From Verrucomicrobiota bacterium (GTDB lineage: Bacteria; Verrucomicrobiota; Verrucomicrobiia; Verrucomicrobiales; Akkermansiaceae), in the NCBI GenBank assembly GCA_004294095.1, contig RDZR01000049.1, positions 1 through 41,589 of the forward strand: 41,589 nucleotides of DNA. Reading direction: 5' to 3'. The translations under genes and the position numbers were made by a program. Positions 12,494 through 39,564 of the stretch are shown in pieces. Numbering within the stretch: the stretch's first letter is position 1; each line of letters starts with the position of its first letter. The notes under the pieces are model-generated. The model worked only from the letters and a program-made list of their open reading frames with translations. It made no database searches and was not told the origin of the DNA.

Positions 12494-12568
12494 GGAATTT
12501 TTACATCCAAAAGATAAATGGCCTGAGTTTCATTCCTCGCCCTAGTTTGCCATGTCATGATTGTTTCT

Positions 12569-22705: not shown

Positions 22706-22715
22706 GGTCAAATTG

Positions 22716-22989: not shown

Positions 22990-23796
22990 TCAATTGACAG
23001 CGGCCGAGGCGACACCCTCTGCTTTTTTGATTTTGTCTTGATTCAATTTCAGAGCGGCTTCGCTCTGAGATTGGAACCAAGTTTGGTATTGCTCACCGGG
23101 CACCACTTCCATCGAGCCGATCATATTCGCGTGACCGTCACCGCAGAGCTGGCCGCACACGACGTATGTTTCAATCGTCTTGATCGGGGTGAACCACATC
23201 GGGATTTCTTTGCCGGGAATTGCATCTTGCTGGATACGCATCGGCACGATCGAGAAATTATGAATCACATCTTTGCTGCCAATGTTCAGCACGGCAGGCT
23301 CCGATACCGGAAGCCGAAGAATAGGACTGGTGAAATCATCGAGTGCGTTGGGATCCGTGTAATCGATGCCCAGATCATTGGTGCTAGAAATTAAATACGG
23401 ATCGTGACGCCCAAATTTGTTATCGAGGCCAGGGTAGTGATAGGTCCAACCGAATTGCCAACCGACCACGCGCACGCGATTTGGATCGAGCTTTTGCACA
23501 GCATCCCACTCATCCACGCGTTGCTTCCACAATGGAAAGGCGAAGCCTAACAGAAGCACAGCTTCAATGATGATGACTCCGACTTCGACGTGGCTTGATA
23601 GATGGCTTTTGACTCCATGGTAAGATGCCTTGGGATGATTGCGATGCCAGAAGCGCACCACGCAATACAGGAAAAACAAAGTCCAGCCCACGAACAATGC
23701 GATCATGAACCAGTGCACCACGTCGATGATGTGATCCACATCGCCGCCATGGGCGGAATAATTTTCAGGAATACCGAGGAGTTTGGATGGGCTCAT
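22990..23796 (-). CDS. coxB: Cytochrome c oxidase subunit II (CuA)
   Basis: A 268-residue subunit II that takes electrons from cytochrome c. Two membrane helices lie at about 27-48 and 70-90. The periplasmic cupredoxin domain has the tryptophan-rich entry strand VVGWQFGWTYHYPG and the CuA ligands His179 (DVIHNF), Cys214, Cys218, His222 and Met225 in CGQLCGDGHANM. The usual Glu between the two Cys, which binds through its backbone carbonyl, is Gln216 here. No cytochrome c domain is fused, unlike caa3 enzymes, so separate cytochromes must deliver electrons. There is no N-terminal lipobox. Subunit II is placed after I, III and IV rather than before I, as is seen in several ACIII-linked clusters only in part. 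Confidence 0.95.
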   Translation of the reverse strand: MSPSKLLGIPENYSAHGGDVDHIIDVVHWFMIALFVGWTLFFLYCVVRFWHRNHPKASYHGVKSHLSSHVEVGVIIIEAVLLLGFAFPLWKQRVDEWDAVQKLDPNRVRVVGWQFGWTYHYPGLDNKFGRHDPYLISSTNDLGIDYTDPNALDDFTSPILRLPVSEPAVLNIGSKDVIHNFSIVPMRIQQDAIPGKEIPMWFTPIKTIETYVVCGQLCGDGHANMIGSMEVVPGEQYQTWFQSQSEAALKLNQDKIKKAEGVASAAVN

Positions 23797-23813: not shown

Positions 23814-24032
23814 CTAAGCTTGGCTGCTAGGTGGCACGTAGTCATCAGACAGAGTGGGATCAAAGTGCTCACGCTCGCGTTTGATGATGCGGATCATGAA
23901 GTAGGCCACCCCTGCCAAAATTCCGAGAATGACGACTAACAGAAAAAAGATCGACCAACCCGCAGCATCACCGCCGCCTTCGATCATATTGATCCGGCAC
24001 GTCGAACAAGCGATGGGAAAAAATGAGACCAT
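23814..24032 (-). CDS. Small single-span membrane protein in the oxidase cluster
   Basis: A 72-residue protein beginning MVSFFPIACSTCRINMIEGGG, followed by one strong membrane helix (about 25-49, WSIFFLLVVILGILAGVAYFMI), a basic stretch IIKREREH and an acidic tail. I chose ATG 24030-24032 because the open frame upstream overlaps the neighbouring small gene and looks non-coding. The CSTC pair near the N-terminus could face the periplasm or bind metal; this is speculation. Its place between subunits IV and II, with 17-bp gaps, suggests an accessory or assembly subunit comparable in size to CcoQ or subunit IV. I do not recognise the family. Confidence 0.7.
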   Translation of the reverse strand: MVSFFPIACSTCRINMIEGGGDAAGWSIFFLLVVILGILAGVAYFMIRIIKREREHFDPTLSDDYVPPSSQA

Positions 24033-24049
24033 GTTAGAATATGTTAGAG

Positions 24050-24250
24050 TTAGAGATGAAGCTTTGCAGCCTTGCGGTAAAAATAGACCCCGTAAATCGG
24101 CATGATTAAAAGACCGAGCACGCCAGTCACACGCATGCCAAGTGCCATGCCCGAACTCTCCCCCGCCAAGAAAAATCCCCACACCGCCAAGAATGCGAAG
24201 AGCAAGCTAGCGACTGATACGAAGATGATGTGGAAGGTCTTGAGTGTCAT
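24050..24250 (-). CDS. Small two-span membrane protein in the oxidase cluster
   Basis: A 66-residue protein with two membrane helices (about 7-29 and 36-57) joined by a short loop GESSGMALG, and a basic C-terminus YRKAAKLHL. The family is not recognised. It lies 30 bp after the subunit IV gene and 17 bp before the other small membrane protein. Composition and position suggest an oxidase accessory subunit; nothing in it shows catalytic residues. Confidence 0.72.
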   Translation of the reverse strand: MTLKTFHIIFVSVASLLFAFLAVWGFFLAGESSGMALGMRVTGVLGLLIMPIYGVYFYRKAAKLHL

Positions 24251-24280: not shown

Positions 24281-24622
24281 TCAACGGCCTGAATAAAATA
24301 ATGGATCAAAAATCGGGTTATAAATCGCTAAAGCAGTCAACCCCGCCAGAGCAATTGCCATGATAATGCCAGAGGCGAACATCCAATAAATTGCTTTTTT
24401 CTCGTGATTAAAATGCATGAAGATCAACAACACAAAACCTGCTTTGGTGGCAGCAATCGCTAGGCCTAAAATGCAGTCATACACGTCGAAGCCGTGGCGA
24501 CCGATATCCAGCGCAGGCACAGTTGCCACCAAATAGGTGATCACGGTGCCGAGGAACAAAATGAAGCCAACGATGCAATAAAGCCGGATGGACTTTTTGA
24601 TCGCCTCTGGAGAATCAGCCAT
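24281..24622 (-). CDS. coxD: Cytochrome c oxidase subunit IV family protein
   Basis: A 113-residue three-helix protein of the CyoD/CoxD type (prokaryotic subunit IV), a structural subunit of heme-copper oxidases. Helices lie at about 14-36, 47-70 and 77-100. The family signature is visible in LGLAIAATKAGFVLLIFMHFNHEKKAIYW, where the K-A-x-x-V-x-x-x-F-M-H pattern is conserved. Length is normal. It follows subunit III by 40 bp. Confidence 0.88.
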   Translation of the reverse strand: MADSPEAIKKSIRLYCIVGFILFLGTVITYLVATVPALDIGRHGFDVYDCILGLAIAATKAGFVLLIFMHFNHEKKAIYWMFASGIIMAIALAGLTALAIYNPIFDPLFYSGR

Positions 24623-24662: not shown

Positions 24663-26264
24663 TTACATCAAGTAAAAGATTGGGAAAACGAAAATCCAGA
24701 CGAGGTCCACAAAGTGCCAAAACAATCCGCCGATTTCGACGCGGTTGGCAAGCCATTCAGGATTTTCATCAAACATTTTGCGCCCAAAAAACAAGTAATA
24801 AGCCAGCACGAGAGCGCCACCAATGACGTGCAATCCATGCAAGCCAGTGATGGTGAAATAAAGCGCGTAGTAAGTATTCCAAGTGGGAGTGAACTTGGAT
24901 GCGAAGGCCACCTTTTCCCGTGGCAGAGAAAATTCTGGGAATGTTTCATCGCCGCGCTTGGCATAATCAGGGCCGAGAAATTCTTCGCGCATTTTGATGT
25001 CTGCATCGCCGCGGTCTTTACCTTCTGCGATCGCAGCAAATTCTTTCCAGCCTAGACGATAGCGTTCTTTCGCGATGGGTTCACGCTTCGGCTTGCCTTG
25101 CTCATCTCTGCCGTAACCATCGATGAGTTCTTTCTCAATCTTTGCAACTTGCAGCTTATTCCACTCCCACGCCTTTTTCACGAATGGGTTATTTTGCACC
25201 AGCCAGGAATCATCAATCGCCTTGATTGGATCTTGCCCTTTGGCCTTGGCTCGCATCGCCAAATGACGGAAGTCCACAGCATCCATGTGGTGAAAAACCA
25301 TCGGGCTCGGCAATAGCGGGCCGGTGATCACGGTATCATCCCGCAGGCGCGATGAAGTGGCATCCTCTTTGATGTCTCTTGGCTTGAACTCAAACTTTGC
25401 TGGTGGATCGACATTGAAAGTGACGGTAGATACTTCTTCTAACAGCTCGAGCTTCGAGGCGTCCACATTCACGTCGCGGGTCAGTTCCCAGTCTTTTTTG
25501 TCAGGAAATTCTGCCTTCTTTTCACGCCATGCGAGGCGCAATGCGTCAGTGCGAAGCTCCGCATTATGAGCCCGCGCGGCGAGGTAGGCTTTTTTGATTT
25601 TGGCTAAAAGTTCAACCGAGAGTGGCTCATTGGCTTTCCCTATCGTCACTGCTGGTTTGCCAAATTCCGTCACCAAGTTGAGGTCGCTTGCTAACAAAAT
25701 TTTCGCATTGCGGTGCTCGGCCTGAGAAATGAATTCCTCGACCCATGGTTTGTGAAAACGCACCGTGCTAAAGTTGAGTTGCTTGGCCTCGACGAAGATC
25801 ATGTTCTCTTCGATTTTTTTCCCATGATGATTGAGCACGTAGCCTTTCTCATCTTTTTCATAGGCAAGGTGGCCTTCCACCACGGTGAAATCAGGCAGCC
25901 TGACCGCTTGGTGATGAAACTTGACGTTGTATTCAATGCCCTTGAGCACCATGAAAATGCCGGCGCATGCCACGGTGATGCCCATGAAAAGTTGGAACAT
26001 CCTCCAATTTCCCAACTTCAAAGATGCCCACGCGAAGACGACCGTCACCGATGAGCCAATGAGCACGAACGTGTTGATCAAACCAGGCATCACCGGCAAG
26101 GTGCGCTCCGGCCATGGGAAATCCGCACCCAAACGCAGAAACACATATGCCGAAAAGAAGCCGCCAAAGAGCATCACTTCCGAGGCCAAAAACAACCAAA
26201 TCGCTATTTTAGAATTAAAAAGACCAGTGTCTTTCCGAGGAGTGACGATGTAGGGAATTTCCAT
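24663..26264 (-). CDS. coxC: Cytochrome c oxidase subunit III with a very large soluble insertion
   Basis: A 533-residue subunit III; the bacterial five-helix form is usually about 200-240. Residues 1-112 hold the first three helices with typical motifs KIAIWLFLASEVMLFGGFFSAYV and VLKGIEY. Residues 458-533 hold the last two helices with YYALYFTITGLHGLHVIGG and EIGGLFWHFVDLVWIFVFP. Between them, at about 113-457, is a hydrophilic, Lys/Glu/Asp-rich segment with no membrane helix and no motif known to me, replacing a normal short loop. The frame is open throughout and codon use looks uniform, so this is a real in-frame insertion rather than a fusion error. By topology it should be on one side of the membrane next to subunits I and II. 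ATG 26262-26264. Confidence 0.9.
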   Translation of the reverse strand: MEIPYIVTPRKDTGLFNSKIAIWLFLASEVMLFGGFFSAYVFLRLGADFPWPERTLPVMPGLINTFVLIGSSVTVVFAWASLKLGNWRMFQLFMGITVACAGIFMVLKGIEYNVKFHHQAVRLPDFTVVEGHLAYEKDEKGYVLNHHGKKIEENMIFVEAKQLNFSTVRFHKPWVEEFISQAEHRNAKILLASDLNLVTEFGKPAVTIGKANEPLSVELLAKIKKAYLAARAHNAELRTDALRLAWREKKAEFPDKKDWELTRDVNVDASKLELLEEVSTVTFNVDPPAKFEFKPRDIKEDATSSRLRDDTVITGPLLPSPMVFHHMDAVDFRHLAMRAKAKGQDPIKAIDDSWLVQNNPFVKKAWEWNKLQVAKIEKELIDGYGRDEQGKPKREPIAKERYRLGWKEFAAIAEGKDRGDADIKMREEFLGPDYAKRGDETFPEFSLPREKVAFASKFTPTWNTYYALYFTITGLHGLHVIGGALVLAYYLFFGRKMFDENPEWLANRVEIGGLFWHFVDLVWIFVFPIFYLM

Positions 26265-26319: not shown

Positions 26320-28206
26320 TTACGCTGGATCTTTAGGATCGGTTACCGGCGCTGTCACCGCGACTGGCTTATGCCACTGAGGGATGAAATCTTCAGCGTG
26401 ATCAGGACGGCTATATTCATAAGGTCCGCGGTAAACAACGGGTTCATCAATGAAATTTCCGTGGCCAGGAGGTGTCGGCGTGGCCCACTCCAGAGTCGTT
26501 GCGTTCCATGGATTATCACTCGTGACCTTGCGACCGAATTTCCATGAGGTGAACAAATTAATGATGAAGAAAATTTGGAAAAACGCCATCGCCCACGCGC
26601 CGTAGGACATGATCAAATTCATATCGATGTGTTGCGCGACGGTATTTGCGAAAACGTTAGCACTGTCTTGCGTTTTTGCCATGTAGGCATCGCCGCCATT
26701 ATACCACCGGCGATGGAATCCGGCCATGCCTTGCATCAACATCGGGAAGAAAATCAAATTCATGCAAATCAAGCTCGGCCAAAAATGCAGGTGATTGAGG
26801 GAGGAATTCATATAGCGGCCGGTAATTTTCGGATACCAATGCAAAACACCTGCGAAGAAGCCAAATAGAATCCCGGGTGCGACAACGTAGTGGAAATGGC
26901 CAATCACGTAATACGTGTCATGCAAATGCAAACCCACCAAATTGAAGGCGAGCGGCAATCCAGTGAGACCACCAATGCCGAACATGGGAATAAACGCACA
27001 AGCCCACAACATCGGCGGCGTAAAGCGAATCGATCCACCCCAAAGCGAGATCAACAGCGCCGTAATAATCACCACCGATGGGATCGAAATCAGCACCGTC
27101 GTCGTTTGGAAAAACGTCGAAACCGCCGCGCCCATGCCCGTCATATACATGTGGTGAGCCCACACAATGAAGGACAGGAATCCCAAGACCAAGACCGAGT
27201 AAACCATCGATTTATATCCCCAAAGCGGCTTGCGCGTATTGGCGGGAATGATTTCTGCGACGCAGGCGAAGGCTGGCAGCAGCAACACGTAAACTTCCGG
27301 ATGGCCCAAGAACCAGAACAAATGCTGGAACAGAAGCGGCGAGCCACCACCGGAAAGATCCGCCAAGCCTTGCGCACCGGTATAAAGCCCAGACGGCATG
27401 AAAAATGATGAATGCAAAACCCGATCCATCAATTGCATGATACCGGCCGCCTCAAGTGGAGGAAATGCTAACAGAAGCAAAAACGCGGTGACCAACATGG
27501 ACCACACAAAAAACGGCAGGCGCATCCACGTCATTCCGCGAGCTCGCAGATTGATAATCGTCGTGATAAAATTCACCGAGCCTAACAGCGAGGATGTGAT
27601 CAACAAAACCAGCCCAATGAGCCACTGAGTTTGTCCCGCCAGCCATTGGTTGACGATTTGCCCATCGGCAAAGCCGGCGAGGGGCGAATAATTCGTCCAT
27701 CCCGATTTCGCAGCACCGGATTCCATGAAAAATGAAGCACACATGACCAATCCGCCTGCGAGGTAAATCCAGTAGCTCATCATGTTGAGCTTGGGAAATG
27801 CCATGTCCACCGCACCAATTTGCAGTGGAGTCACGTAGTTTCCGAACGCGCCAAAGCCAAGCGGCACAATGCCAAGGAACACCATGATCGTGCCGTGCAT
27901 CGCACCGAACATGTTATAAGTCTCACCCGTGACTTTCCCATCTAACAGCCACCGCGCTTTCCAGCCATCGTTGAAAATAAAGCTCATCCACTCCGGCAGC
28001 GGCTGGTGCGGGTAGGCAATGCTCCAACGCATCACCATCATCAGATAAAAACCAAAGGCCAAAAACAACATGGCCGTGATGGCATACTGGATGCCGATCA
28101 TTTTGTGATCCGTCGAAAAAACATACTTCCAGAGAAATCCTGGATTGTGATGATGATCATCGTGATGGGCATCTGGCCCATGTGCAGTTGAAGGGTGAGA
28201 ACTCAT
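26320..28206 (-). CDS. coxA: Cytochrome c oxidase subunit I (heme-copper catalytic subunit)
   Basis: A 628-residue catalytic subunit reducing O2 to water. The heme ligands are His103 (GAMHGTIMVF) for the low-spin heme, and His437 and His439 in GHFHYVVAPG. CuB ligands are His302 with the cross-linked Tyr306 (GHPEVY) and His351-His352 (WAHHMY). D-channel residues of A-type oxidases are present: Asp134 and Asn141 in GAVDMAFPKLN, and Glu304. The K-channel lysine expected in PTGIKxF is replaced: the aligned stretch reads IPSVVIITALL, with Ile380 at that place. The N-terminus is His/Asp rich, and the C-terminal tail extends beyond the twelve helices. It heads the CoxA-C-D-small-small-B order. Confidence 0.96.
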   Translation of the reverse strand: MSSHPSTAHGPDAHHDDHHHNPGFLWKYVFSTDHKMIGIQYAITAMLFLAFGFYLMMVMRWSIAYPHQPLPEWMSFIFNDGWKARWLLDGKVTGETYNMFGAMHGTIMVFLGIVPLGFGAFGNYVTPLQIGAVDMAFPKLNMMSYWIYLAGGLVMCASFFMESGAAKSGWTNYSPLAGFADGQIVNQWLAGQTQWLIGLVLLITSSLLGSVNFITTIINLRARGMTWMRLPFFVWSMLVTAFLLLLAFPPLEAAGIMQLMDRVLHSSFFMPSGLYTGAQGLADLSGGGSPLLFQHLFWFLGHPEVYVLLLPAFACVAEIIPANTRKPLWGYKSMVYSVLVLGFLSFIVWAHHMYMTGMGAAVSTFFQTTTVLISIPSVVIITALLISLWGGSIRFTPPMLWACAFIPMFGIGGLTGLPLAFNLVGLHLHDTYYVIGHFHYVVAPGILFGFFAGVLHWYPKITGRYMNSSLNHLHFWPSLICMNLIFFPMLMQGMAGFHRRWYNGGDAYMAKTQDSANVFANTVAQHIDMNLIMSYGAWAMAFFQIFFIINLFTSWKFGRKVTSDNPWNATTLEWATPTPPGHGNFIDEPVVYRGPYEYSRPDHAEDFIPQWHKPVAVTAPVTDPKDPA

Positions 28207-28249: not shown

Positions 28250-29011
28250 TTAGGGCGCTGTCGCTGGAGCCAACGAAATGGGATCCACCATGGTTTTAGG
28301 ATCGAGTGCATCACCCGGCAGCATTTTGGTATGCTCCGCAGCGAGCTCCTCGCCCGTCACCATATTGCCAGCACCGGCACGCGCAGCGGAGGCTTCGATG
28401 GCGGCTTTGGCCATATCGAGAGTGATCACATCGCCCACGGAATTGCCGAAGTTGTTGCGGACGTAGGTCATCACCGTGGCGAGATCTTCTGGAGACATAC
28501 CGATTCCTTGCGGCGGCATCACACCGTAAGTTTTGCCATTATCCACTGGGCCTGTTAGACCGTTGAGAATGATCATCGCAAAGCGCTGTGTTTCGCCAAT
28601 CACCCACGGCGTGCCGACAAGAGATGGGTAAGTCGAGCCGTTGCCTTTGGCCTCAGATCCGTGGCAACCATTGCATTTGGCAGAGTAAATTTTCGCGCCT
28701 TTCGCCATATAAGCGACAAGTGCCTCCTTCGGCACTGGACCGGTGTCTTCTGCGCCCGGAGCTGGGCTACGTTCATAGCCTTCGCGGAAAGTGGCTGAAT
28801 ACGATCCGAAATTCGCGCCACCCAAGATGCCGCCGGCAATCAAAAACACCGCTCCGCCGACCACCAACGCCCATAAGGAAATTCCTTCTTTACCATTCGT
28901 GGCGATGCGTTTTTCGCGAGCACATGCAGCAACATCGCGGACGAGTCGATCGTGGACCTCGGTGACGTTGATCGAATCCTCAAGATCCGGTTTTTTATTC
29001 GGCGTTGACAT
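28250..29011 (-). CDS. Membrane-anchored monoheme cytochrome c
   Basis: A 253-residue protein with a cytoplasmic N-terminus, one membrane helix at about 46-66 and a periplasmic cytochrome c domain. Heme attachment is CNGCH at 113-117; the methionine ligand is probably in the GVMPPQG stretch. The C-terminal end of the domain, MTYVRNNFGN, closely resembles LTYVRNSFGN in the other anchored cytochrome of the cluster (31314-32066), so the two are likely paralogs. An Ala-rich tail follows. Position between the CcoO-like gene and subunit I suggests it shuttles electrons to CuA, in place of the cytochrome domain fused to subunit II in caa3 oxidases. It occupies the place of CcoP but has one heme, not two. 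Confidence 0.88.
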   Translation of the reverse strand: MSTPNKKPDLEDSINVTEVHDRLVRDVAACAREKRIATNGKEGISLWALVVGGAVFLIAGGILGGANFGSYSATFREGYERSPAPGAEDTGPVPKEALVAYMAKGAKIYSAKCNGCHGSEAKGNGSTYPSLVGTPWVIGETQRFAMIILNGLTGPVDNGKTYGVMPPQGIGMSPEDLATVMTYVRNNFGNSVGDVITLDMAKAAIEASAARAGAGNMVTGEELAAEHTKMLPGDALDPKTMVDPISLAPATAP

Positions 29012-29047: not shown

Positions 29048-29752
29048 CTACTTCGCCTCTTTTTTAGGCGGGCCAAAGTTGAGTGCTGCTGGCACAGGTT
29101 GATCCTTTTTCAAAGACATCAGGTAGGAAACTAATGCCTTCGCCTCCGGGCTTGGGGAAACCTGCTTACTTGGATCGTCGCCAAATGGCAGCGCATCCGT
29201 GGAGCGATTTCCTTTCACCGGTTTCTCAACAAATAAAAACTGATATGACGGGCAGCCAGACATGAAGCGCTCTGGCAATCGGCGCGGATCGTAGAGGTGC
29301 TTATACAACCACAGCTCAGGGCTCGTTCCCACCGCGTAAATTGATTCCACCCGGCGGCCTATATTGGATAGATCTGGCCCGAGGCGCATCACTCCGATTT
29401 GTGCGAAACGCTCACCAGAAAAATCATAGGCGTTCGTTTCGCGGCGTGTATCGCCACGGTCTGGATCTGCCTTCAAGCCGGCCCAATCCGCGCGATACAT
29501 GTCATTGCCGGCATAGGTTGGGCGGATAATTTGGGTGTGGCATTGGTAGCAACCATTAGCCGCATAAACCTTTGCGCCGTCTTGAATACGGCCCGTGCGC
29601 TTCGGATAAAAAACGCCCGTTTTGCCGTCCACCGCTTCCGAGAACTCAAGCGGCGCAAGGCGGCTCATCGCCACCGATGGCGCGATCAAGATGGCCAACC
29701 ATGCGACGCCAAAGCTGGCAAACAAACCTAAGATGAAAATGCGAAGACTCAT
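29048..29752 (-). CDS. CcoO-like monoheme cytochrome c (cbb3 subunit II homolog)
   Basis: A 234-residue protein anchored by an N-terminal helix (about 5-27). It is related to CcoO of cbb3 oxidases: heme site in AANGCYQCHTQIIRP (C68-x2-C71-H72), then RLGPDLSNIGRR and YKHLYDPRRLP. In CcoO the axial methionine is in an S-x-M-P-x-Y/F context. Here the aligned stretch is ERFMSGCPSY, with Cys167 at the Met position and Met164 three residues before. Heme ligation could therefore be His/Cys or could use Met164. It sits 24 bp after the CcoN-like gene, the normal ccoNO order, but that CcoN-like partner lacks the oxygen-reducing site. Confidence 0.85.
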   Translation of the reverse strand: MSLRIFILGLFASFGVAWLAILIAPSVAMSRLAPLEFSEAVDGKTGVFYPKRTGRIQDGAKVYAANGCYQCHTQIIRPTYAGNDMYRADWAGLKADPDRGDTRRETNAYDFSGERFAQIGVMRLGPDLSNIGRRVESIYAVGTSPELWLYKHLYDPRRLPERFMSGCPSYQFLFVEKPVKGNRSTDALPFGDDPSKQVSPSPEAKALVSYLMSLKKDQPVPAALNFGPPKKEAK

Positions 29753-29776: not shown

Positions 29777-31279
29777 TTAATGGGCGGCCGCGTGTCCAGG
29801 GCCGGCGTTATCAATATCCCCTTCTTCTCCATGCACACTGCCGGAATGATGCGGCTTAAGCAGCAATGTGGGATGCGAACTGCGGCGGCCAAGGCCCACC
29901 CACATCAGCGTGAGATGGATGAAATAAAAGATGTTAGAAAATAACAAAAAGCACCAAGTAATCGTCGTCGCCACTGCGTAGGGATACGCACGCGATGCAG
30001 CCGCCTGCCACGGCAACTGCCATGATTCTTCACCGATGCCTTGCTGCAAACCACCAAACAGAGCAACCAACGCCACCGTCACGATGCCATAGGCAGAAAA
30101 CAGAAAATGAATTTTAATCAATCGGCTCGAAATCCACTCGCGGCGCGTCACCCGAGGCACAATGAAATAAATCGCACCAAACGTCACCAAGCCGAAAAAT
30201 CCGTATAGCGCCAAAATTTCAAACCCATAATTGGAAAGTGAAAATTGTGTGAGTTGCAGCGTGCTTCCGGGTAAATTCAAAAAGACGGCGGCAAAGCCTA
30301 ACAACAACATCGCCACCACACCCGCCGTCATGAATCGCAAGGCCGGGCTGCTTGATAAGGTCTGAGTATCACTCATGACCGTTTTCAAAAGATTCAGACC
30401 CGAGGCAAACAATGGCACGGCCAACAACACCGTAGCGGCTGCGCCCATCATTGGAATCCAATACGTGATCGGTGCTCCAGCCAATTTTTGCATGCCAGCC
30501 CATGGTGCAATCACCGCCAGCGACCAAAAGCCAAGCTGGGCCAACGAATAACTAAACACCGGACGGCCAGTGACTTTCGGTGCCAGATAAAAGGCCGCCG
30601 CTAGCGCAACTGGCGTGAAAAACAAAAAGATCAATGCCGATTTATACCACGCCGCCACTCCAGCCGCCATCACCGGGTGGCTCGGAAAGACATGCAAAAG
30701 CAGATTGGCCGAAGCAAAAATCCACGGGAACCAAATGATCGCAGCTAGCAGATACCATTGGGAAATATACGTATGCCCCTCCGGTCTGACACGAAACTGG
30801 ATGAAGGCACCCATCGTGATGACGATAAACGTCGCTAACAAAACCGGCCATGCAAACACCGGAAACTCCAACCAAGGAATTCCAGTGCCGTAGCCAGCGA
30901 GAATGCCAATCACGCCCAACATCACTACCAAATTCCAGACATGCCCGGCAGCCAACAATGTGCCCGCATTGGTGCACGTTTTACGCGAGAGCCGCGCCAT
31001 CAACCAAATGATCACCGCAAATGCTGCCTGAAATCCCCAACCGTAAATCAACGCGTTGATGTGCGCCGGTGCCACACGGCCATAGGTCAGCCAGCCGTAA
31101 TCATTCAAAAAAGACGGCCAATGCACCTTGGTTGATCCGATGATGGCCAGCACCATCGATACCGCCAACCACGCCGCACCGCTGGTTAAAAAAAACATCA
31201 CCGGGTGACGCAACGAACGGTCGATCCCCACGCGAAGCAAGGCATCTTGATCTGGGCCGGTGGCTGACGAAGTAGTCAT
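29777..31279 (-). CDS. CcoN-like membrane protein without heme-copper ligands
   Basis: A 500-residue, twelve-helix-type protein that aligns along its length with CcoN, the catalytic subunit of cbb3 oxidases (APAHINALIYGWGF, APKVTGRPVFSY, GLVTFGAIYFIVPRVTRREW). Only one ligand histidine remains, His73. Against P. stutzeri CcoN recalled from memory, the CuB histidine of WYGHNAV becomes Ser214 (WYKSALI), the GPHHLHY pair becomes Gln264-Lys265 (GMQKLAG), and the GHVH ligands of heme b3 and low-spin heme become Phe353 and Ile355 (GFEI). O2 reduction by this subunit is therefore not expected. It probably serves as a structural docking subunit. ATG 31277-31279 (MTTSSATGPD) is chosen; the longer frame to 31363 would overlap the preceding gene. 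Confidence 0.85.
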   Translation of the reverse strand: MTTSSATGPDQDALLRVGIDRSLRHPVMFFLTSGAAWLAVSMVLAIIGSTKVHWPSFLNDYGWLTYGRVAPAHINALIYGWGFQAAFAVIIWLMARLSRKTCTNAGTLLAAGHVWNLVVMLGVIGILAGYGTGIPWLEFPVFAWPVLLATFIVITMGAFIQFRVRPEGHTYISQWYLLAAIIWFPWIFASANLLLHVFPSHPVMAAGVAAWYKSALIFLFFTPVALAAAFYLAPKVTGRPVFSYSLAQLGFWSLAVIAPWAGMQKLAGAPITYWIPMMGAAATVLLAVPLFASGLNLLKTVMSDTQTLSSSPALRFMTAGVVAMLLLGFAAVFLNLPGSTLQLTQFSLSNYGFEILALYGFFGLVTFGAIYFIVPRVTRREWISSRLIKIHFLFSAYGIVTVALVALFGGLQQGIGEESWQLPWQAAASRAYPYAVATTITWCFLLFSNIFYFIHLTLMWVGLGRRSSHPTLLLKPHHSGSVHGEEGDIDNAGPGHAAAH

Positions 31280-31313: not shown

Positions 31314-32066
31314 TTACGGCTTAACGAGTTCCTCGCGCTTGACTTGTGGCTTGCCCACTTCACTGCGCAACGCGGCTACTTGATCCGGCTTCACCGCCGA
31401 TGCCTTATTGCCAAAACTATTGCGGACGTAGGTGAGCACCGCGGCGACTTGATCGTCCGTCTGGTAGGCAAGCGCAGCCATCCCGCCCGGAATGTTGTAT
31501 TCCACGCCCTTGACCGTGATGCCACCGACCAATCCGCGCAATTGGATTTTAATCAAATTAGAAATCGGCCCGGCAACCCACTCGGACCCAGCCAACGGCG
31601 GACCAATGCCGCCTTGACCTTCCATGCCGTGGCACGCACTGCAAATCATATAGCTCGCTTTGCCCAACTCCATCACCGCTGGATCGATCGGCTCGTCAGC
31701 CGCAGGCGCGGCATCCATCGCTGTGGTATCGACGGCTGGTGCCTCGGCAATTTTCTTCGCAGTCGCCGAGCCCGGGACGATTTGCTCCGGCTTTTCGATT
31801 GCCACCGGCTTGCTCGCTAGCAAGGCGGCCGCCGCAGCTGGGATTGCCTTTTGAATTTCCTCTTGGCTGAGTGATGCCACTTGAGCGGCCTCGATTTTTT
31901 TGCGCGTTTCGTAGCGAGGCACCGCCGCAGCGTCTTCGAGGCTCGTCGGCTCAGAGCGATTGAAAAGCCAGACCACCGCAACCAACACGGCAAAGATCAA
32001 AAGTGTGCCTAGTCCCCACCAATAAGTGGCGAAGCGGAGGAATGGATTGTCGCGGGATGGATCCAT
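31314..32066 (-). CDS. Membrane-anchored monoheme cytochrome c with Ala/Pro-rich linker
   Basis: A 250-residue protein: N-terminal helix at about 15-36 (WWGLGTLLIFAVLVAVVWLF), then a flexible linker rich in Ala, Pro and Glu (about 40-128), then a cytochrome c domain with heme site CSACH at 142-146 and a likely methionine ligand in IPGGMAALAY. Its C-terminal LTYVRNSFGN matches the paralogous cytochrome at 28250. The long linker would let the heme reach from ACIII towards the oxidase. It lies 17 bp after actF and 34 bp before the CcoN-like gene, at the junction of the two complexes. Confidence 0.87.
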   Translation of the reverse strand: MDPSRDNPFLRFATYWWGLGTLLIFAVLVAVVWLFNRSEPTSLEDAAAVPRYETRKKIEAAQVASLSQEEIQKAIPAAAAALLASKPVAIEKPEQIVPGSATAKKIAEAPAVDTTAMDAAPAADEPIDPAVMELGKASYMICSACHGMEGQGGIGPPLAGSEWVAGPISNLIKIQLRGLVGGITVKGVEYNIPGGMAALAYQTDDQVAAVLTYVRNSFGNKASAVKPDQVAALRSEVGKPQVKREELVKP

Positions 32067-32083: not shown

Positions 32084-33394
32084 TCAGTTAGAAAGGTTAG
32101 CGGATTCGAGAATGCGAGGATCGCGGTTTGCATACACCGAGTGTTGGCCAATCGCGCGGATTAAGAAAAAGATGAACGCAGCACCAATGGTGACGAAGGC
32201 AAGAATATCACCCCAAAACGCGCCGGAAATGCTCACTTGGATGTCTCCAAAAACCTCGGGCTTGATATTCCCAAGCGAGACACCGCGCTCTGGAATGCTG
32301 ATCAAATAATGGTCGAGCGCGTGCATGCACAACGTGTAAACCGCCACAATCGAGAGCAATTTCGGGTTTTTCTTCAGCCATGCTTGCAGCAAAATTACGA
32401 ATGGCACCACAAAGTGGCCAAAGACCAAGGCAATCTGCGCGACGTTCCAATTTCCAGTATTCCGAATCAAGAAATACGATGTCTCTTCGGTAATGTGTGC
32501 ATACCAGATCAGGAAAAATTGCGAAAACGTGATGTAGGCCCAGAATGTGGTGAACGCGAATAGCAATTTCCCCATGATGTGAAAATGCTCACCCGAGGTC
32601 ACATGCTTGAGGTGGCCCATGCTTTTTAACCAGGTGCAGACAATGATGATCACCGCCATCGAGTTGAGCGCCGTGCCTGCAAAGAGATACACGCCCCACA
32701 TCGTCGAGAACCATTTGAAATCGAGCCCTTTAAGAAAATCAAAGCCCGTGAACGTGATCGTCAGCGCGAAAATAATCAACGAATAGGTCGAATGAAAGCG
32801 CGCCCGGAACAAACGCTTAGTGCCCGGATTTGGATCTTTATCCTGATCCGTCGAAAGTTTACGCAAGCCGATGATCACAAATCCTAAGAAAAAGAAATAA
32901 AAGCCCATGCGCAGATACCAAAATGGCAAATTGAGGAACCAATACTTGTTGTAAAGCAAGTGATCCACATGGTGCAAATGCTCCTTGATATCGCCTTGAG
33001 CCGCACGCTGCGTATTCATCCACTCATACAAATATTGCTGCACATGCGGGAAAAATAACGGAATCGCAAACAAGAACATCCATGGAAAAGTCGATCCCAA
33101 ATTTTCAAACGTGCGCCGCACCGATGTGCCCCAACCGGAGTTGGAAACATTGTGCAGCAGGGTCCAAAACACGCCGCCAATCGATAGCGTGAGGAAAAAG
33201 TAAAAAGCAAAAACCCATGAATACGCATAGCAGCCTTGGATTTTCTCCGATGCGAAGAATAAGGCATAAATACTCAGCAACGAGCCGAGCACCGCAATGG
33301 CCAAGGCCAGCGTTTTTACTTTGGCAACCTTCGAGGAATCCAAGTGATCGCCCTCGATGGCGATGTCTGCCGATGTGACGTGGTGATGAGCCAT
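32084..33394 (-). CDS. actF: Alternative Complex III subunit ActF
   Basis: A 436-residue polytopic membrane protein, the second quinol-side NrfD-like-fold subunit of ACIII. About ten helices are visible. Characteristic ActF stretches include AYSWVFAFYFFLTLSIGGVF, the internal FRARFHSTYSLIIFALTITF region, and FAFTTFWAYITFSQFFLIWYA near 285-305. ActF pairs with ActC in the membrane; it is thought to be structural or to contribute to proton translocation rather than to quinol oxidation. It starts 27 bp after actE, in the usual A-B-C-D-E-F order. Confidence 0.93.
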   Translation of the reverse strand: MAHHHVTSADIAIEGDHLDSSKVAKVKTLALAIAVLGSLLSIYALFFASEKIQGCYAYSWVFAFYFFLTLSIGGVFWTLLHNVSNSGWGTSVRRTFENLGSTFPWMFLFAIPLFFPHVQQYLYEWMNTQRAAQGDIKEHLHHVDHLLYNKYWFLNLPFWYLRMGFYFFFLGFVIIGLRKLSTDQDKDPNPGTKRLFRARFHSTYSLIIFALTITFTGFDFLKGLDFKWFSTMWGVYLFAGTALNSMAVIIIVCTWLKSMGHLKHVTSGEHFHIMGKLLFAFTTFWAYITFSQFFLIWYAHITEETSYFLIRNTGNWNVAQIALVFGHFVVPFVILLQAWLKKNPKLLSIVAVYTLCMHALDHYLISIPERGVSLGNIKPEVFGDIQVSISGAFWGDILAFVTIGAAFIFFLIRAIGQHSVYANRDPRILESANLSN

Positions 33395-33421: not shown

Positions 33422-34072
33422 TTATTTAGCGGGAGTTTGTGCGGCCTTCGCAGCTTGCAACGTGCGCACGTAGGCAACGATCGCCCAGCGGTCGCGCACG
33501 GGAATGTTCGCGCCGTAAGCACCCATTTGGCCCTTGCCGTGAGTAATGACCTCAAAGACGCGGCCATCCGGATACGTTGCGGATTGAAAATTGCTCAAAT
33601 GGAAATTCGCGATGCCCGGCACGCCGTATTGGCTAGTGATGCCTTGTCCATCGCCCGAAGCCCCGTGGCAAATCGCGCAATAAATCCCGAAGCGTTCTTT
33701 GCCGCGCGCAATGAAGGACTCCGCATTTTCCGCCGTGAGCGCCAGTTCCTCCGGCATGCCAGCACCGTAATAATCACCCACATGGCCGCTGTAATAGTAG
33801 CCAGTTTGTCCGCCAAATTCGTATTCCGGAATGCCGCCCATTTCGCGCTTGCCGTCCTCATTGAAGCCACGCGGCTGAGTTTGCGCCACCGGCAATCGAC
33901 CGCCTTGGCCATTGGCAAAAAAATCGCTCGGCTTTTGCGCCTTGAGCTTATCTTGCTGATCCATATCCGAGAAAATCTGCACCGGCGGCTTGCTGAAGTG
34001 CTGACCACGCAGCCCAAAAATGCCGACGACGGTTAGGGCAATCAGAGCGTAGATGATAAAAAAGTAGCGCAT
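33422..34072 (-). CDS. actE: Alternative Complex III subunit ActE (monoheme cytochrome c)
   Basis: A 216-residue cytochrome c subunit anchored by an N-terminal helix (about 3-21). After a typical ActE stretch, KPPVQIFSDMDQQDKLKAQ, comes the heme site YCAICHG (C132-x2-C135-H136) and the likely methionine ligand in GKGQMGAYG. ActE is the heme carrier that passes electrons from the ActA/ActB wire to the oxidase side in ACIII supercomplexes. A Tyr/Gly-rich segment (GQTGYYYSGHVGDYYGAG) lies before the heme domain. An Ala-rich tail ends the protein. Confidence 0.93.
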   Translation of the reverse strand: MRYFFIIYALIALTVVGIFGLRGQHFSKPPVQIFSDMDQQDKLKAQKPSDFFANGQGGRLPVAQTQPRGFNEDGKREMGGIPEYEFGGQTGYYYSGHVGDYYGAGMPEELALTAENAESFIARGKERFGIYCAICHGASGDGQGITSQYGVPGIANFHLSNFQSATYPDGRVFEVITHGKGQMGAYGANIPVRDRWAIVAYVRTLQAAKAAQTPAK

Positions 34073-34107: not shown

Positions 34108-34662
34108 TTAATCTTCTTCTTCGACTAGCTCAATCTGCTTGCCGCCGATGTTTTCTAACAAATCACGCGTGCCTTGCGGGCTGAACTTTGGATCCCGCGC
34201 CTCAATCGCGATGAAAAATCCATCATCCGTCGCACGGTGAAATTGCTTGCTCGCAAAAAGCGGGTGATTCAAGCGCGGCAGTTGAATCAGGCCGAGTAGG
34301 CCAAACAACGTCGCAAAGCCGGAAAACAAAATCGTCAGCTCAAACATGATCGGGAAAAACGCCGGCACCGTGAAAATGTTCGCTGGCTTCGCCTGGACGA
34401 TGGTCGGGTAAATTTCCACCTGCGTCACATAGGCCAACGCAAATGCCGTCGCCAAACCTGCACAACCGCCGCAGAAAACGAACCATGGCAGAATCGAGCG
34501 CTTCAGCCCCATCGCACCATCCAAGCCGTGAATCGGATACGGCGAGTAGCAATCCCATTTTTGGAACCCCGCATCACGGATTTGCTCCGCCGCCTTATAC
34601 AAGGTGGATGCGCTCGAAAACTCAGCAAGATAGCCGTAAACTCGTTTGCGGGTGGTGCTCAC
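34108..34662 (-). CDS. actD: Alternative Complex III subunit ActD (DUF3341)
   Basis: A 184-residue DUF3341 protein. It has an N-terminal cytoplasmic ferredoxin-like part (VYGYLAEFSSASTLYKAAEQIRDAGF, then the YSPYPIHGLDGAMGL motif typical of ActD), two membrane helices (about 57-80 and 95-125) and a C-terminal beta part ending in acidic residues. In ACIII structures ActD is a small membrane subunit with no cofactor. Gaps of 38 bp to actC and 35 bp to actE support an operon. Confidence 0.94.
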   Translation of the reverse strand: MSTTRKRVYGYLAEFSSASTLYKAAEQIRDAGFQKWDCYSPYPIHGLDGAMGLKRSILPWFVFCGGCAGLATAFALAYVTQVEIYPTIVQAKPANIFTVPAFFPIMFELTILFSGFATLFGLLGLIQLPRLNHPLFASKQFHRATDDGFFIAIEARDPKFSPQGTRDLLENIGGKQIELVEEED

Positions 34663-34700: not shown

Positions 34701-36182
34701 TTAGGACTTGGTTTCCACCAACTCGTGTTGATAGGCCGGAATTTTCACCACGCCTGGATCTGGATGCTCCTCGATGTCATCAAAATGTGGATCGGACTCA
34801 AGTTTGGTCCACTTGACTTCGGCGATGTTGATGCAGGGTAAAAATCTCAAGAACATCATGAACAATGCGAGGAATAAGCCGATCGTGCCCACAAACGTCA
34901 TCAACTCAACCGCACTCGGGCTATAGGTTTTCCAATCTCCCGGCAGGAACATGCGCGCCAAGGTGGTGACGATGATCACAAATCGCTCAAACCACATGCC
35001 CACGTTCACACACATCGCCACAATCATGATGACCCATAAATTTTCGCGGCACGCCTTGAACCAGAACACCTGCGGAGACAGGACGTTGCAGCTCATCATC
35101 GCCGCATAAGCCCACCAATACGGGCCGGCGATCCGATATTTGAAGGCATCCATTTCATAAATCGCACCCGAGTAGAACGCGACGAATAACTCCATCAAAT
35201 ACGCATAACCAACGATTGTGCCCGTCAATAAAATGATCTTCGCCATATTATCGATGTGCTTCATCGTGATCAAATCCTGCAATCCGTAGATAAACCGCGC
35301 AGGAATCATGATCGTCAGCACCATCGCAAAACCACCGAAGATCGCACCCGCCACGAAATACGGTGGGAAAATCGTCGTATGCCAGCCCGGCACCACCGAC
35401 GTTGCAAAGTCGAACGAAACGACCGAGTGCACCGAGAGCACCAGCGGCGTCGAAAGCGCGGCCAATAGCAAATACGCCATTTCATAGTGGCTCCACTGCC
35501 GGTTGCCACCGCGCCAGCCGAGGGCGAAAATGCCGTAGGCCCATTTACGCAGGCCCGGCTTGCAGCGATCGCGAATCGTCGCCAAATCCGGCACCATGCC
35601 TAAATACCAAAAAATCAATGAAATCGTAAAATAGGTGGAAACCGCAAAAACGTCCCACAGCAGCGGCGATTTGAAGTTTTGCCAAATCGCATTCGCATTC
35701 GGAATCGGCGCTAAAAACCACGCAAACCAAACGCGCCCAACGTGGAATGCCGGGAAAATCCCCGCGCAGATCACCGCAAAAATCGTCATCGCTTCCGCCG
35801 CTCGGTTGATCGAAGTCCGCCAGTTCTGTCGCGTTAGGAATAGCACCGCAGAAATCAGCGTGCCCGCGTGGCCGATGCCGATCCAAAACACGAAGTTCGT
35901 GATATCAAAGCCCCAGAAAACCCGATTCGACATGCCCCAAACGCCCACACCCGTCGAAACGAGATAGGTCAAGCCACCGCCCACGCCAATCATGGCAATC
36001 AGCGCCGACGGCAAAAATAACAACCACCACAAAAACGGTTGCCGGTTTTCCACCACCCCGCAAATGCGCTCGGTGATCCAATGATATGAGCGTCCGCTCA
36101 AAATCAATTTTTCACGCTCCAAAACAGGCAGCTTAACGCTTGATTGGAGCTTAGGGTGTGCGGAATCGGTCGTGGATGCCAT
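34701..36182 (-). CDS. actC: Alternative Complex III subunit ActC (NrfD/PsrC-like quinol-binding)
   Basis: A 493-residue polytopic NrfD-type protein, the quinol-oxidising membrane subunit of ACIII. Typical stretches are [23 protein letters not shown] near the N-terminus, [26 protein letters not shown], the [29 protein letters not shown] segment (conserved His in GWHTT) and [13 protein letters not shown]. About ten helices are predicted. The C-terminal tail is soluble and acidic. It lies 43 bp after actB. Confidence 0.95.
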
Positions 36183-36225: not shown

Positions 36226-39200
36226 TTAGACCATGTGCACGGTGGCTTTGCCGACAAATGCCGCGTCCGGCATCTTCGGATTCGGATTTTTCACCCGCGC
36301 AAGATAGCTGGTGCGCGGCCGAGTGCCGATGTAGTGGAGCAAATCGTAATTGCGGGCAATTTCCTTGCTGCGCGCCATCGCAGATTTTTCTTTATCGAGT
36401 AAATTGCCGAAGGTGATCGCACCGGCGACGCAGGCATCCTGACAGGCGACTTTCACGGAATCCACCGGAATGCGCAGGGTGGTTTCGGTGACTTGGAAGG
36501 CAGGCGATGGCTTGCCGGATTCCAGCACTCCTTGCTTTTGGCCGCGCTTCTGGCGGATCACCGCATCTTTGAGGCGCTGCACGCAGTAGGTGCACTTTTC
36601 CATCACCCCACGCATCCGCACGCTGACGTTTGGATTGCGCTGCAAGTGCGGAGCCTCGCCCACTTGCTTGACCCCAAATGGGCCTTTGTAAAGATTTTTG
36701 GCGATGAGCGGGTTGCGCTTGTTGTAATCGAAATAATTGAAACGGCGGGCTTTGTAAGGGCAGTTATTCGCGCAGTAACGGGTGCCGATGCAGCGATTGT
36801 AAGCCATCACGTTCAGGCCATCCTCGCTGTGAATCGTCGCATTCACTGGGCAAACTGTTTCGCAAGGCGCGCTCTCGCAGTGCACACAAGCCACTGGCTG
36901 CGGCACCAATTCGGGATTCCCAGCATCGAAGGTATTGTCCGCTTGAGTCGCGTAGTAGCGGTCCATCCGGATCCAGTGCATTTCACGGCCGGCCGCCACT
37001 TGCTTTTTGCCAACGATCGGGATGTTATTTTCCGCTTGGCAAGCGACGAGGCAGGCGTTGCAGCCAGTGCACGAAGAAAGATCGATCGACATCGCCCACT
37101 GGTGCAATTTGTCATTGATCAGCGGCTCGCCTTTCGTGTCTTCCGGCTTGTAAAGATAAATGTTCGGCGGCGCGTGAGAATCATTTCCCTGCTTGGGAAC
37201 ATCCGCGAGTTGCTCTTCAAAGCTGCCTTTATTCTTATCGACCATCGTCGAAATTTCACGCGCAAGTGCACGGCCATACATCGCGTGGTGCTCTTGCGTG
37301 AGTGCCATCGAGTAACGTTGATCTAGCACTTTGACTGTGGCACCCGTGGCGATGTAGGCGCTGGCCGATGTTCTCAACGGATACGCATCAAAGCCGGTAT
37401 TCACCCCAACGAGGCCAACGTGGCCGGACTTGGATGTGTCGCGCTTGAGCTCGTCATCCGCATCGAATCCCTGGCCGTAGCCTAACGGAATGACGATCAC
37501 ATTTTCCGCTTGGCCAAAGGAAACCAGCACCGGAATTTTCAATGATTTTCCATTGACTGAAATCTCAATCATGCGCTGCGTGCGATGCTCGCCCTCACCA
37601 TCCGGGCCGACTTTCGCATATTTCCCCTCGACGCCGACGAATTTCGTCTTCGGCTCCGGCACGCGTAATTCTTGGGTGATGCCGAGCGCCTCAGCCGTAG
37701 CAGGCGCGATCAATGCCGCATTGTCCCAAGTCGCCTTGGTGATCGGATCGGGAGCCTCTTGCAACCATCCATTGTCGATCCAACGTCCGTCATAAACCGA
37801 TGAGTCAGTCGCAAAAACCACTTCCAAGGCGCTCGTGGTCGGCGCTGCTGGCACGACGATTGCTCCCAGCGCAGGAGTCAGCGAGGCGGCGGCATACGTC
37901 GATCCTGCAAAAAATCCATCGCGTAAAAGTTGTTTCCACACCTCATCGCCCGCACCACCGATGGCGCTGAAGGTCGCGCGCACCGCGTCATATGCAGGCG
38001 ATGCCGCGCCGTCCTTGCCCTCGCCAAAAAGCAATTTGCCATCCGTCGCGAGCAAGGCGAGCAACAGCTCAAATTCCGAAATGCAATCTGGATAGAGCGG
38101 TAAAATCATCGGTTGCACCACGGTGTAAACGCCCGATGACGTGCGAGCATCCGACCATGATTCGAGGTAATGCGCTGCTGGCACATGCCACGTCGCCGCA
38201 TGGGCCGTGGCATCCGTGCGCATGCCGTGATGGATCACCAGCTTGAGCTTGGAAAATAGTTCGCTGAGTTGAAAATCAGCCGGCGCGTCGTAAATCGGGT
38301 TGGCCGGAGTCAGCAGGAGTAAGGAATCGATCGCGCCACTTTGCACATCATCGCGGAGTTGCGCCAAGGAGCCGAGCCCGATCGCTTCACTCTGCAACGC
38401 AGCGAGCGGCTTGCCCTCGCCGATGTTGCCTAGCGCTTGATTGATGGCCACCGCGATTTGTTGCACGGCGGCGGGTTGCCGCGAGCCGGCGAGCACCAAT
38501 GATTTTCCGGCATTTTCCTTGAGATCTTCGACGAGTGCGGCGACCCATGCGAGGTGCTTCTCATCGCTGAGAGCTGGCGCGGAAATGGCAATGCCAAGCC
38601 CCTGCGCCACCGCAGCGGCGATACCGGCCACTTGGCTCGGCGCGATCCGCAAGCGATGGTCCGCCATGCCGCCAGTTACTGTAAATGCGCCTTCCACGAC
38701 ATACAATCGGTTCATCGACGCCGCATCCGGCGCGGTGGTGTAATCGCGGCCTTCCGGTTTCCTACGATCAAAAAACGCCGCGGTCGGTCCTTGGCAATCG
38801 TCGCCCACAAAATCACAATCCAACGCTAAAATGCGGTCTGCATGACTGAAATTGGCCGCTAATTTCACACCGTCTGGCAGCGCGCTGGCCACGTCACCCG
38901 TGAGCGCTTCGTATTGGTAAAACTTGGCCGCGGAGAATTTTTTCTTCAGCTCTTCTGTTAGGCGAACACGCGTCGGGCTCACATCCGTGCCGTAAACGAT
39001 GCCCAACTTGGCACTCGAATCTGCCGCCAATGCCGCAATCGCTTTTTCAAGCTCCGCCACCGAGGTCACTTTTTTCTGGTGAATCACTCGGCGCGAACGC
39101 GAGGGCGAGTAAAGATCGAGAACCGATGCTTGCGCAAAAGCATCCGTGCCGCCAGCATCCGGGTGCAAATGGTTAGGAGCCACCTTCGTCGGGCGCCCTT

Positions 39201-39564
39201 CAAAAGTCGTCACTACAAGTGGCGTCGCTCCGTGCGGGCGCGGCATCGAGGAGGCATAATACGTCGCTTTCCCCGGAATCACCCACTCCGGCGCTTTCGT
39301 GTAGGGAACAAGATAAGCTTCCGGGCGGCGGCAAGATGCCATGCCAAATCCAGCAAGCGCGGTGGAAGCACCCATCAATTTGAGAAACGAACGGCGCGAT
39401 GTTTCCACATCTTCCCCATCTGCCATCTCAGCCGCACCTTGCGGGAACTCGCGCTCCAGCCATTGGCGGAAGCTCGCGGAGTCCTCAAGCTGGCCCTGGC
39501 TGCGCCATGAAACGGTCGTCTCATCAGCAGGAATGCTTGGGTGATTCAAAATGCGCTTACTCAT
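36226..39564 (-). CDS. actB: Alternative Complex III subunit ActB (molybdopterin-like domain fused to Fe-S domain)
   Basis: A 1112-residue fusion. A twin-arginine motif SRRSFLKLMG (Arg57-Arg58) is followed by a hydrophobic stretch and Cys78, a lipobox-like end (GMASC), so the protein is likely exported by Tat and possibly lipidated. Residues of about 85-800 form the molybdopterin-oxidoreductase-like B1 domain, which in ACIII binds no molybdenum cofactor. Residues of about 820-1060 form the B2 domain with four cysteine groups: CTGCNACLVAC, CVHCESAPCETVC, CIGTRYCANNC, and CTYC with CQDAC further on. These hold the Fe-S clusters that carry electrons from quinol to the hemes of ActA. The length is normal for ActB. 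It begins 33 bp after actA. Confidence 0.96.
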   Translation of the reverse strand: MSKRILNHPSIPADETTVSWRSQGQLEDSASFRQWLEREFPQGAAEMADGEDVETSRRSFLKLMGASTALAGFGMASCRRPEAYLVPYTKAPEWVIPGKATYYASSMPRPHGATPLVVTTFEGRPTKVAPNHLHPDAGGTDAFAQASVLDLYSPSRSRRVIHQKKVTSVAELEKAIAALAADSSAKLGIVYGTDVSPTRVRLTEELKKKFSAAKFYQYEALTGDVASALPDGVKLAANFSHADRILALDCDFVGDDCQGPTAAFFDRRKPEGRDYTTAPDAASMNRLYVVEGAFTVTGGMADHRLRIAPSQVAGIAAAVAQGLGIAISAPALSDEKHLAWVAALVEDLKENAGKSLVLAGSRQPAAVQQIAVAINQALGNIGEGKPLAALQSEAIGLGSLAQLRDDVQSGAIDSLLLLTPANPIYDAPADFQLSELFSKLKLVIHHGMRTDATAHAATWHVPAAHYLESWSDARTSSGVYTVVQPMILPLYPDCISEFELLLALLATDGKLLFGEGKDGAASPAYDAVRATFSAIGGAGDEVWKQLLRDGFFAGSTYAAASLTPALGAIVVPAAPTTSALEVVFATDSSVYDGRWIDNGWLQEAPDPITKATWDNAALIAPATAEALGITQELRVPEPKTKFVGVEGKYAKVGPDGEGEHRTQRMIEISVNGKSLKIPVLVSFGQAENVIVIPLGYGQGFDADDELKRDTSKSGHVGLVGVNTGFDAYPLRTSASAYIATGATVKVLDQRYSMALTQEHHAMYGRALAREISTMVDKNKGSFEEQLADVPKQGNDSHAPPNIYLYKPEDTKGEPLINDKLHQWAMSIDLSSCTGCNACLVACQAENNIPIVGKKQVAAGREMHWIRMDRYYATQADNTFDAGNPELVPQPVACVHCESAPCETVCPVNATIHSEDGLNVMAYNRCIGTRYCANNCPYKARRFNYFDYNKRNPLIAKNLYKGPFGVKQVGEAPHLQRNPNVSVRMRGVMEKCTYCVQRLKDAVIRQKRGQKQGVLESGKPSPAFQVTETTLRIPVDSVKVACQDACVAGAITFGNLLDKEKSAMARSKEIARNYDLLHYIGTRPRTSYLARVKNPNPKMPDAAFVGKATVHMV

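Follow-up and report, generated by a model that had tools for sequence, protein, structure and literature searches.

In Acidobacteria, alternative complex III (ACIII) is described together with a caa3 oxidase (PMC8407424), and in F. johnsoniae it feeds an aa3 oxidase, for which the cytochrome subunit ActE is not needed (PMC8552683). For the Verrucomicrobiota, the available text of a review on verrucomicrobial methanotrophs reports that the ACIII genes adjoin a cbb3-type oxidase, counts this cbb3 among the oxidases and, citing Refojo 2010, states that a C-type oxidase beside ACIII occurs only there and in Opitutaceae (PMC8498564), while the accessible part of the Kam1 genome paper ties the ACIII-adjacent ‘cbb3’ of the methanotroph to a very high oxygen affinity (PMC6688271). 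In another Verrucomicrobiota isolate, ActABCDEF is followed directly by Cox I-IV, there is a separate cbb3 cluster, and the available gene list names no CcoN-CcoO at ACIII (PMC13274419), which argues against the universality of an ACIII-linked CcoN-CcoO pair. In bd-like oxidases of Nitrospinae, CuB His is replaced by Gln and the His of the high-spin heme by Phe (PMC8026999). No ACIII-linked CcoN that has lost its ligands was described in the literature searched on ACIII and CcoN, which left most subscription papers out of reach and included, as far as their text was available, PMC8361435, PMC8407424, PMC8498564, PMC6688271, PMC13274419, PMC5615132, PMC8026999 and PMC8552683.

The window analysed here, i.e. 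the whole stretch of 41,589 nucleotides, belongs to a genome assembly that comprises 113 contigs, totals 3.0 Mb and is 97% complete. It contains an ACIII cluster with actA to actF in order, upstream of a CcoN-like gene and in the same direction, all on the minus strand: ActA, a multiheme cytochrome c (39598-40296; Pfam Cytochrome_C7, 1.1e-12), ActB with a C-terminal 4Fe-4S domain and a weak Tat signal match (36226-39564; Pfam Fer4_7 and others), ActC of the NrfD family (34701-36182; Pfam NrfD, 1.9e-20), ActD (34108-34662; Pfam ActD, 4.7e-60), the mono-heme cytochrome c that we name ActE by its position (33422-34072; Pfam Cytochrome_CBB3, 6.6e-12) and ActF (32084-33394; PDB 6f0k_F, E 1.7e-51, and 6btm_F). 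A cytochrome c with one CxxCH, seen in the translation, lies between ActF and the CcoN-like gene (31314-32066; Pfam Cytochrom_C, 2.5e-09). Downstream of the CcoN-like gene, on the same strand, come a CcoO/FixO-like monoheme cytochrome c (29048-29752; Pfam FixO, 3.4e-11; PDB CcoO chains 9g6b_B and 3mk7_B), another cytochrome c with one CxxCH (28250-29011; Pfam Cytochrome_CBB3, 4.7e-11), and then the subunits of an A-type (aa3) oxidase in the order I (26320-28206; Pfam COX1, 1.5e-128; CtaD, 546 bits), III (24663-26264; Pfam COX3 in two stretches), IV (24281-24622; Pfam COX4_pro, 1e-08) and II (22990-23796; Pfam COX2, 9.7e-12), the last with a CuA-like motif in its translation. Subunit I carries what we take to be the metal-ligand motifs of this family, so that the ligand loss in this cluster, which has two genes of the COX1 family, is confined to the CcoN-like gene.

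Several further features of the window can be recorded here. The aa3 oxidase has a subunit III of 533 aa, in which a hydrophilic insertion of ~330 residues splits the two COX3 stretches; the corresponding frame measures 537-624 aa in the other loci of the window's family (f1) versus 270-295 aa in loci of family f4. Between oxidase subunits IV and II lies a small frame with a membrane stretch and an uncertain start (23814-24182, minus strand), which is matched in 9 of the 10 other f1 loci and gave no family match above cut-off. Polysaccharide genes adjoin the respiratory cluster (12557-22711; GH106 rhamnosidase-like, GH42-like, carbohydrate phosphorylase-like and GH39), and a tryptophan halogenase-like frame (40600-41589, minus strand) runs off the contig end.

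The CcoN-like frame runs on the minus strand from an ATG at 31279 to 29777 and encodes 500 residues. Its homology to COX1 is clear (Pfam COX1, E 1.4e-41, 143 bits against a cut-off of 34.8), and a phmmer search of the PDB (E up to 1) returned five hits, exclusively CcoN-type chains of cbb3 oxidases, with 9g6b_A (E 7e-29) and 3mk7_A (E 1.6e-27) at the top. With NCBIfam ccoN it scores 105.6 bits and falls below the curated cut-off of 583. An intact ACIII-linked CcoN in another genome (G366) also remains under this cut-off, at 242 bits, and the cut-off alone is therefore no marker of ligand loss. The genome of the window encodes a second CcoN that does pass it (612 bits); at 851 residues, its frame would be long enough for a CcoN-CcoO fusion.

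We compared the protein with PDB 3mk7, which we take to be the P. stutzeri cbb3 oxidase and whose residue roles we assign on the same presumption. The CuB ligands H207, H257 and H258 are replaced by S214, Q264 and K265, the heme b3 ligand H345 by F353 and the low-spin heme ligand H347 by I355, so that codons 353-355 (Phe, Glu, Ile; 30215-30223, minus strand) cover the sites of H345 and H347. The cross-linking Tyr251 has been lost too (A258). Only one of the seven active-site residues is retained, His73 (codon at 31061-31063, minus strand), which stands at the position of H60, the other member of the low-spin heme pair. The first-pass annotation, relying on an alignment to a remembered CcoN, had named the same five replaced histidines and His73 as the sole remaining ligand; both statements hold in the phmmer alignment with the structurally known CcoN chains 9g6b and 3mk7 and in a MAFFT alignment with relatives. 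The idea that a misalignment hides other histidines acting as ligands was rejected on these two alignments and a scan of His columns: no histidine obviously takes over among 77 ligand-lost copies from related loci, in which the only column with His in more than 60% is H391 (91%), a non-ligand position at which the 43 intact copies without exception have His too, followed by H53 (56%) and H455 (47%). An AlphaFold2 model of the window protein made with only two sequences reached a pLDDT of 39. Judged by its residues, the window protein is a pseudo-oxidase, i.e. a CcoN that is without the ligands of heme b3, of CuB and of one side of the low-spin heme, while its sequence remains recognisable as CcoN throughout.

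The availability of related genomes allowed us to survey other ACIII clusters, as the annotation had proposed. CcoN matches, some of them to ordinary CcoN, were present in 90 of 288 genomes of a phylum sample (E <=1e-20) and in 304 of 384 genomes of a class sample (E <=1e-30). From the class sample, 40 genomes were chosen by family among the 304 with matches; a further 20 came from another set of 59 genomes, and six class-level genomes with matches in the phylum sample were left out (G054, G091, G155, G160, G169 and G283). We analysed 134 loci, namely 132 stretches, the window and a contig of a Haloferula MAG (L003). In 14 of them, which served as outgroup, the stretch has CcoN but neither ActA-D nor ActF, leaving a family of 120 loci, a hand-picked and non-random spread of related Verrucomicrobiota. 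The ccoN-ccoO gene order that the annotation had described as kept is indeed retained in the window and throughout the family, with the two genes adjacent in 120/120 loci, contiguous with actF in 118/120 and part of a full actA-actF-ccoN-ccoO run in 105/120; among the 15 loci without the full run, some lie at a contig end and others have a gene that is unrecognised or elsewhere. In one locus (L123) the pair is present and no Act gene was recognised within 19.7 kb. All 120 loci have a CcoN-like stop-to-stop frame (467-681 aa). In the class sample, ActD was found in 329 of 384 genomes and, by hand count, together with a CcoN-like match in 299; ActD without a listed CcoN match occurred in 30 genomes (14 of them of genus g2, with weak ActD scores), and the reverse in five. 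Elsewhere in the phylum, family f24 (L092, L094-L098) has intact CcoN-CcoO pairs with frames of 457-517 aa, an ActE-like cytochrome c nearby and no other Act genes in the stretch.

We scored seven residues in each copy (H60, H207, Y251, H257, H258, H345 and H347), counting a gap at a ligand column as not kept. All seven were kept in 43 loci, none in 23, one in 41, two in 10, three in three and four to six in no locus. The ligand loss of the window is thus shared by 77 of 120 loci with zero to three of the seven residues, although, given the hand-picked sampling, 43:77 is no frequency of intact and lost copies. The all-or-none pattern is not due to chance. Both states occur inside families f3, f5, f11 and f79 and within genus g30 (L126 intact, L074 lost), and the window is one instance of a recurrent ligand-lost state in ACIII-attached CcoN-CcoO pairs. 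Four copies, all from family f6 (L049, L051, L112 and L113), keep the low-spin pair H60/H347 while the b3/CuB set is gone, as if one heme had stayed, and four others (L125, L128, L145 and L150) keep H347 with Tyr or Cys at position 60, where an unusual heme ligation is conceivable. In one genome with a lost-type copy (G511), a second CcoN-like match (C78:1860-3281, 309.7 bits, one stop flagged) possibly represents a second ACIII-linked copy.

A search for COX1-family genes in 68 genomes, nine of which were outgroup or had a locus that was not fetched, detected at least two such genes in 39 of 39 genomes with a lost copy. In two small genomes with a stated completeness of 98-99% (G001 and G146), the intact ACIII-linked CcoN is the sole COX1-family gene detected (E <=1e-4), which is why the intact ACIII-linked copies are probably working oxidases. 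The other 18 of 20 intact-copy genomes do have other oxidase genes, indicating that a spare oxidase permits the loss and does not explain it.

The CxxCH of the partner subunit CcoO is present in all 77 lost and all 43 intact loci, including the window (residue 68). The Met of the M-P-x-Y motif, presumably the axial heme ligand, is found in 43/43 intact and 57/77 lost loci; in the remaining 20 it has changed to Cys in 13, among them 11 of 11 loci of family f1, and to another residue in seven. In the window, Cys167 (TGC codon at 29252-29254, minus strand) aligns with this Met in the CcoO chains from the PDB. If this equivalence is correct, the CcoO heme of the window could be His/Cys-ligated, and decay would have begun to extend to the partner. 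Other His/Cys-ligated hemes have an unusually low potential. The loss of the presumed axial Met in 20/77 loci makes a role in electron relay less likely there, the window's family included.

The two kinds of copy also differ in their rate of change. At an Act distance below 0.3, the median CcoN identity was 85% for intact-intact (15 pairs), 72% for lost-lost (13 pairs) and 62% for mixed comparisons (6 pairs). Within genus g30, the lost L074 and the intact L126 share 85% of their Act and 51% of their CcoN residues, while the two intact copies L122 and L126 share 81% and 85%, respectively. Columns conserved in at least 85% of sequences number 42 of 386 in lost copies and 168 in intact ones. The close lost pair L036-L037 has a dN of 0.072 and a dS of 0.706, i.e. 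a dN/dS of about 0.1, and the low dN relative to dS points to purifying selection on lost copies in this one pair; for comparisons with the window's own copy, dS is saturated. The lost copies evolve faster yet stay open, and to all appearances they are maintained and not rotting.

We consider it probable, at roughly 60%, that an oxidase core has here been turned into an ACIII-bound scaffold or structural part that carries CcoO, with both the mechanism and the physical association inferred. The ancestor of these Verrucomicrobiota would already have encoded a C-type oxidase core beside ACIII. Once a further terminal oxidase was at hand, the CcoN site would no longer have been needed to reduce oxygen, and the CcoN-CcoO pair would have been retained as a component that the ACIII assembly had meanwhile acquired. 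A lost CcoN might then act as a membrane platform holding the cytochrome c domain of CcoO against ACIII, with electrons leaving to another oxidase, and where the axial Met of CcoO has also been lost, CcoN would be mainly a structural subunit.

How often this happened depends on the tree. The Act tree was built by a quick search under LG+G4 from concatenated ActA, B, C, D and F, without CcoN (110 rows with ActB and ActC, 2299 columns). It requires at least 18 state changes or, if only losses are allowed, 22 losses, with 20 remaining after branches below 95 SH-aLRT were collapsed and polytomies merged, and 12 when only branches of 100 were kept; FastTree on the same data gave 23 losses, 20 at 0.95 and 16 at 0.99. 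The CcoN tree, from which the ligand columns were removed, requires four changes, or three with weak branches collapsed, and it places 58 lost copies out of 77 in one group (SH-aLRT 99); long branches abound in this tree. We regard the estimate of about twenty losses from the Act tree as more likely than the three to four of the CcoN tree. The main rival to repeated loss is the transfer of dead copies: a single ancient dead CcoN may have spread by gene replacement or lateral transfer, in which case the scatter on the Act tree would not reflect repeated decay. The grouping in the CcoN tree and its few changes speak for this, as do some lost copies that are slightly closer to another lost copy than to any intact one (e.g. 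L077, L087 and L143), and a single clade of all lost copies withstood the test on the complete set (p-AU 0.197). It was rejected, however, in a hand-chosen subset of 23 rows (p-AU 0.004), so that by formal test there was more than one loss in this subset. In a second hand-chosen subset of 33 rows with fewer long branches, the lost copies of f1 and f2 regrouped with other intact relatives and those of f5 joined the intact f5 copies (support 78/86), although a clade of the f5 and f1/f2 lost copies was not rejected there either (p 0.335). Furthermore, L062 shares 63% identity with an intact relative and 46% with the lost copy nearest to it. On balance we think the spread of one dead CcoN unlikely, at perhaps one chance in five.

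The first-pass annotation had pictured the former subunit as a scaffold or docking unit between ACIII and an aa3 oxidase, i.e. a dead CcoN-CcoO pair bridging the two in a supercomplex. A COX1 gene does lie downstream on the same strand in 36 of 72 lost loci, including the window, and in 4 of 39 intact ones (Fisher p 2.4e-5; 111 loci scored, with nine left out in which no COX1 was seen within less than 6 kb of downstream DNA), at a distance of 1.4-6 kb in all 40 loci that have one, and in F. johnsoniae a supercomplex of ACIII and aa3 has been described (PMC8361435). In the available text of the same paper, however, the contact is described as running via oxidase subunit III, and the other 36 of the 72 scorable lost loci retain CcoN and CcoO although the downstream DNA fetched for them contains no COX1. 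Fourteen independent pairs on the Act tree gave 2.0 for an association, 0.8 against and 11.2 without difference, which is not significant, and on this basis we rejected a neighbouring aa3 oxidase as the driver of ligand loss, which the raw Fisher signal had suggested. As the pair is present with or without an aa3 gene next door, its retention goes with ACIII, and a bridge to the neighbouring oxidase appears doubtful. What survives of the annotation's proposal is the retention of a one-time oxidase subunit as a membrane scaffold, consistent with purifying selection in a close pair, the invariable ccoN-ccoO adjacency and the CcoO heme motif in every lost locus; a place between ACIII and aa3 as a rule does not. 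Five loci (L048, L114, L116, L135 and L140) have both an intact ACIII-linked CcoN and, in the same stretch, a COX1 gene, possibly two oxidases per cluster and a possible starting state for loss. It is less probable still that the lost CcoN is a redox protein in which His73 and a further ligand hold one heme, as a sensor or electron carrier. His73 is invariant in the 11 f1 loci, 28 of the 77 lost copies still have H60 and four loci retain both low-spin ligands, but H60 is gone in the other 49, and f1 has no invariant His, Met or Cys at the partner position. A decaying pseudogene on its way out, finally, would fit the faster evolution, the ligand loss and the few matches flagged with an internal stop in the genome search (e.g. 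G409, G559 and G526, outside the locus set); with open frames in all 120 loci, a dN/dS of about 0.1 in the close pair and the lost state spread over many families, we consider this very improbable.

The ligand loss has a bearing on how respiratory genes are read in the methanotrophs. In family f4, pmoA-type genes were found in six of six genomes tested, and we therefore take this family to be verrucomicrobial methanotrophs. At the seven scored positions, the ACIII-linked CcoN of the four loci read in this family (L087, L088, L089 and L091) has ADAAHQT or SESSHFV, which leaves one residue of the seven in place, and in 11 f4 genomes there was no ccoN match over the cut-off, the best reaching 44.6 bits; since intact ACIII-linked copies are also under the cut-off, it is the low f4 scores that weigh more than the cut-off itself. 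The published methanotroph ‘cbb3’ gene and the f4 gene are equated here by position only. Taking all this together, we tentatively propose, at somewhat less than even odds, that an oxidase core became locked into the ACIII cluster of one class, lost its oxygen site about twenty times and was each time kept in a non-catalytic form. ACIII would there have two extra structural or relay subunits, the CcoO heme of f1 would be His/Cys-ligated and of low potential, and many ACIII-linked ‘cbb3’ genes, including the ‘high-affinity’ one of methanotrophs, would not encode oxidases. Genomes are credited with terminal oxidases on the strength of a ccoN or COX1 gene, and oxygen affinities are inferred from these; given the ligand loss seen here, genes so annotated probably include some that do not reduce oxygen. 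Should the losses be as numerous as in the Act tree, they would also amount to a natural set of conversions from enzyme to subunit, and one genus offers both an intact and a lost copy.

With the cbb3 oxidases of known structure (3mk7, 9g6b), the window shares CcoN similarity over residues 30-415, the CcoN-CcoO order and a mono-heme CcoO with CxxCH; it differs in a CcoN devoid of the CuB and b3 ligands, one low-spin ligand and the cross-linking Tyr, and in the weak ccoP match of the cytochrome c that follows CcoO (42.8 bits versus a cut-off of 180). The F. johnsoniae ACIII-aa3 supercomplex has the ACIII genes in common with the window, where an A-type oxidase lies beside them, but no CcoN or CcoO is described for it in the available text (PMC8361435, PMC8552683). 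The Nitrospinae bd-like oxidases also are oxidase-like proteins that have lost part of a heme-copper ligand set, in another protein and context and, by the available account, with a partial loss only (PMC8026999). A further counterpart is the ACIII with C-type oxidase of methanotrophs and Opitutaceae, in which an ACIII cluster is likewise followed by ccoN-ccoO; the papers, in their accessible parts, assume a working cbb3 (PMC8498564, PMC6688271), whereas the CcoN of four pmoA-bearing genomes is without the ligands.
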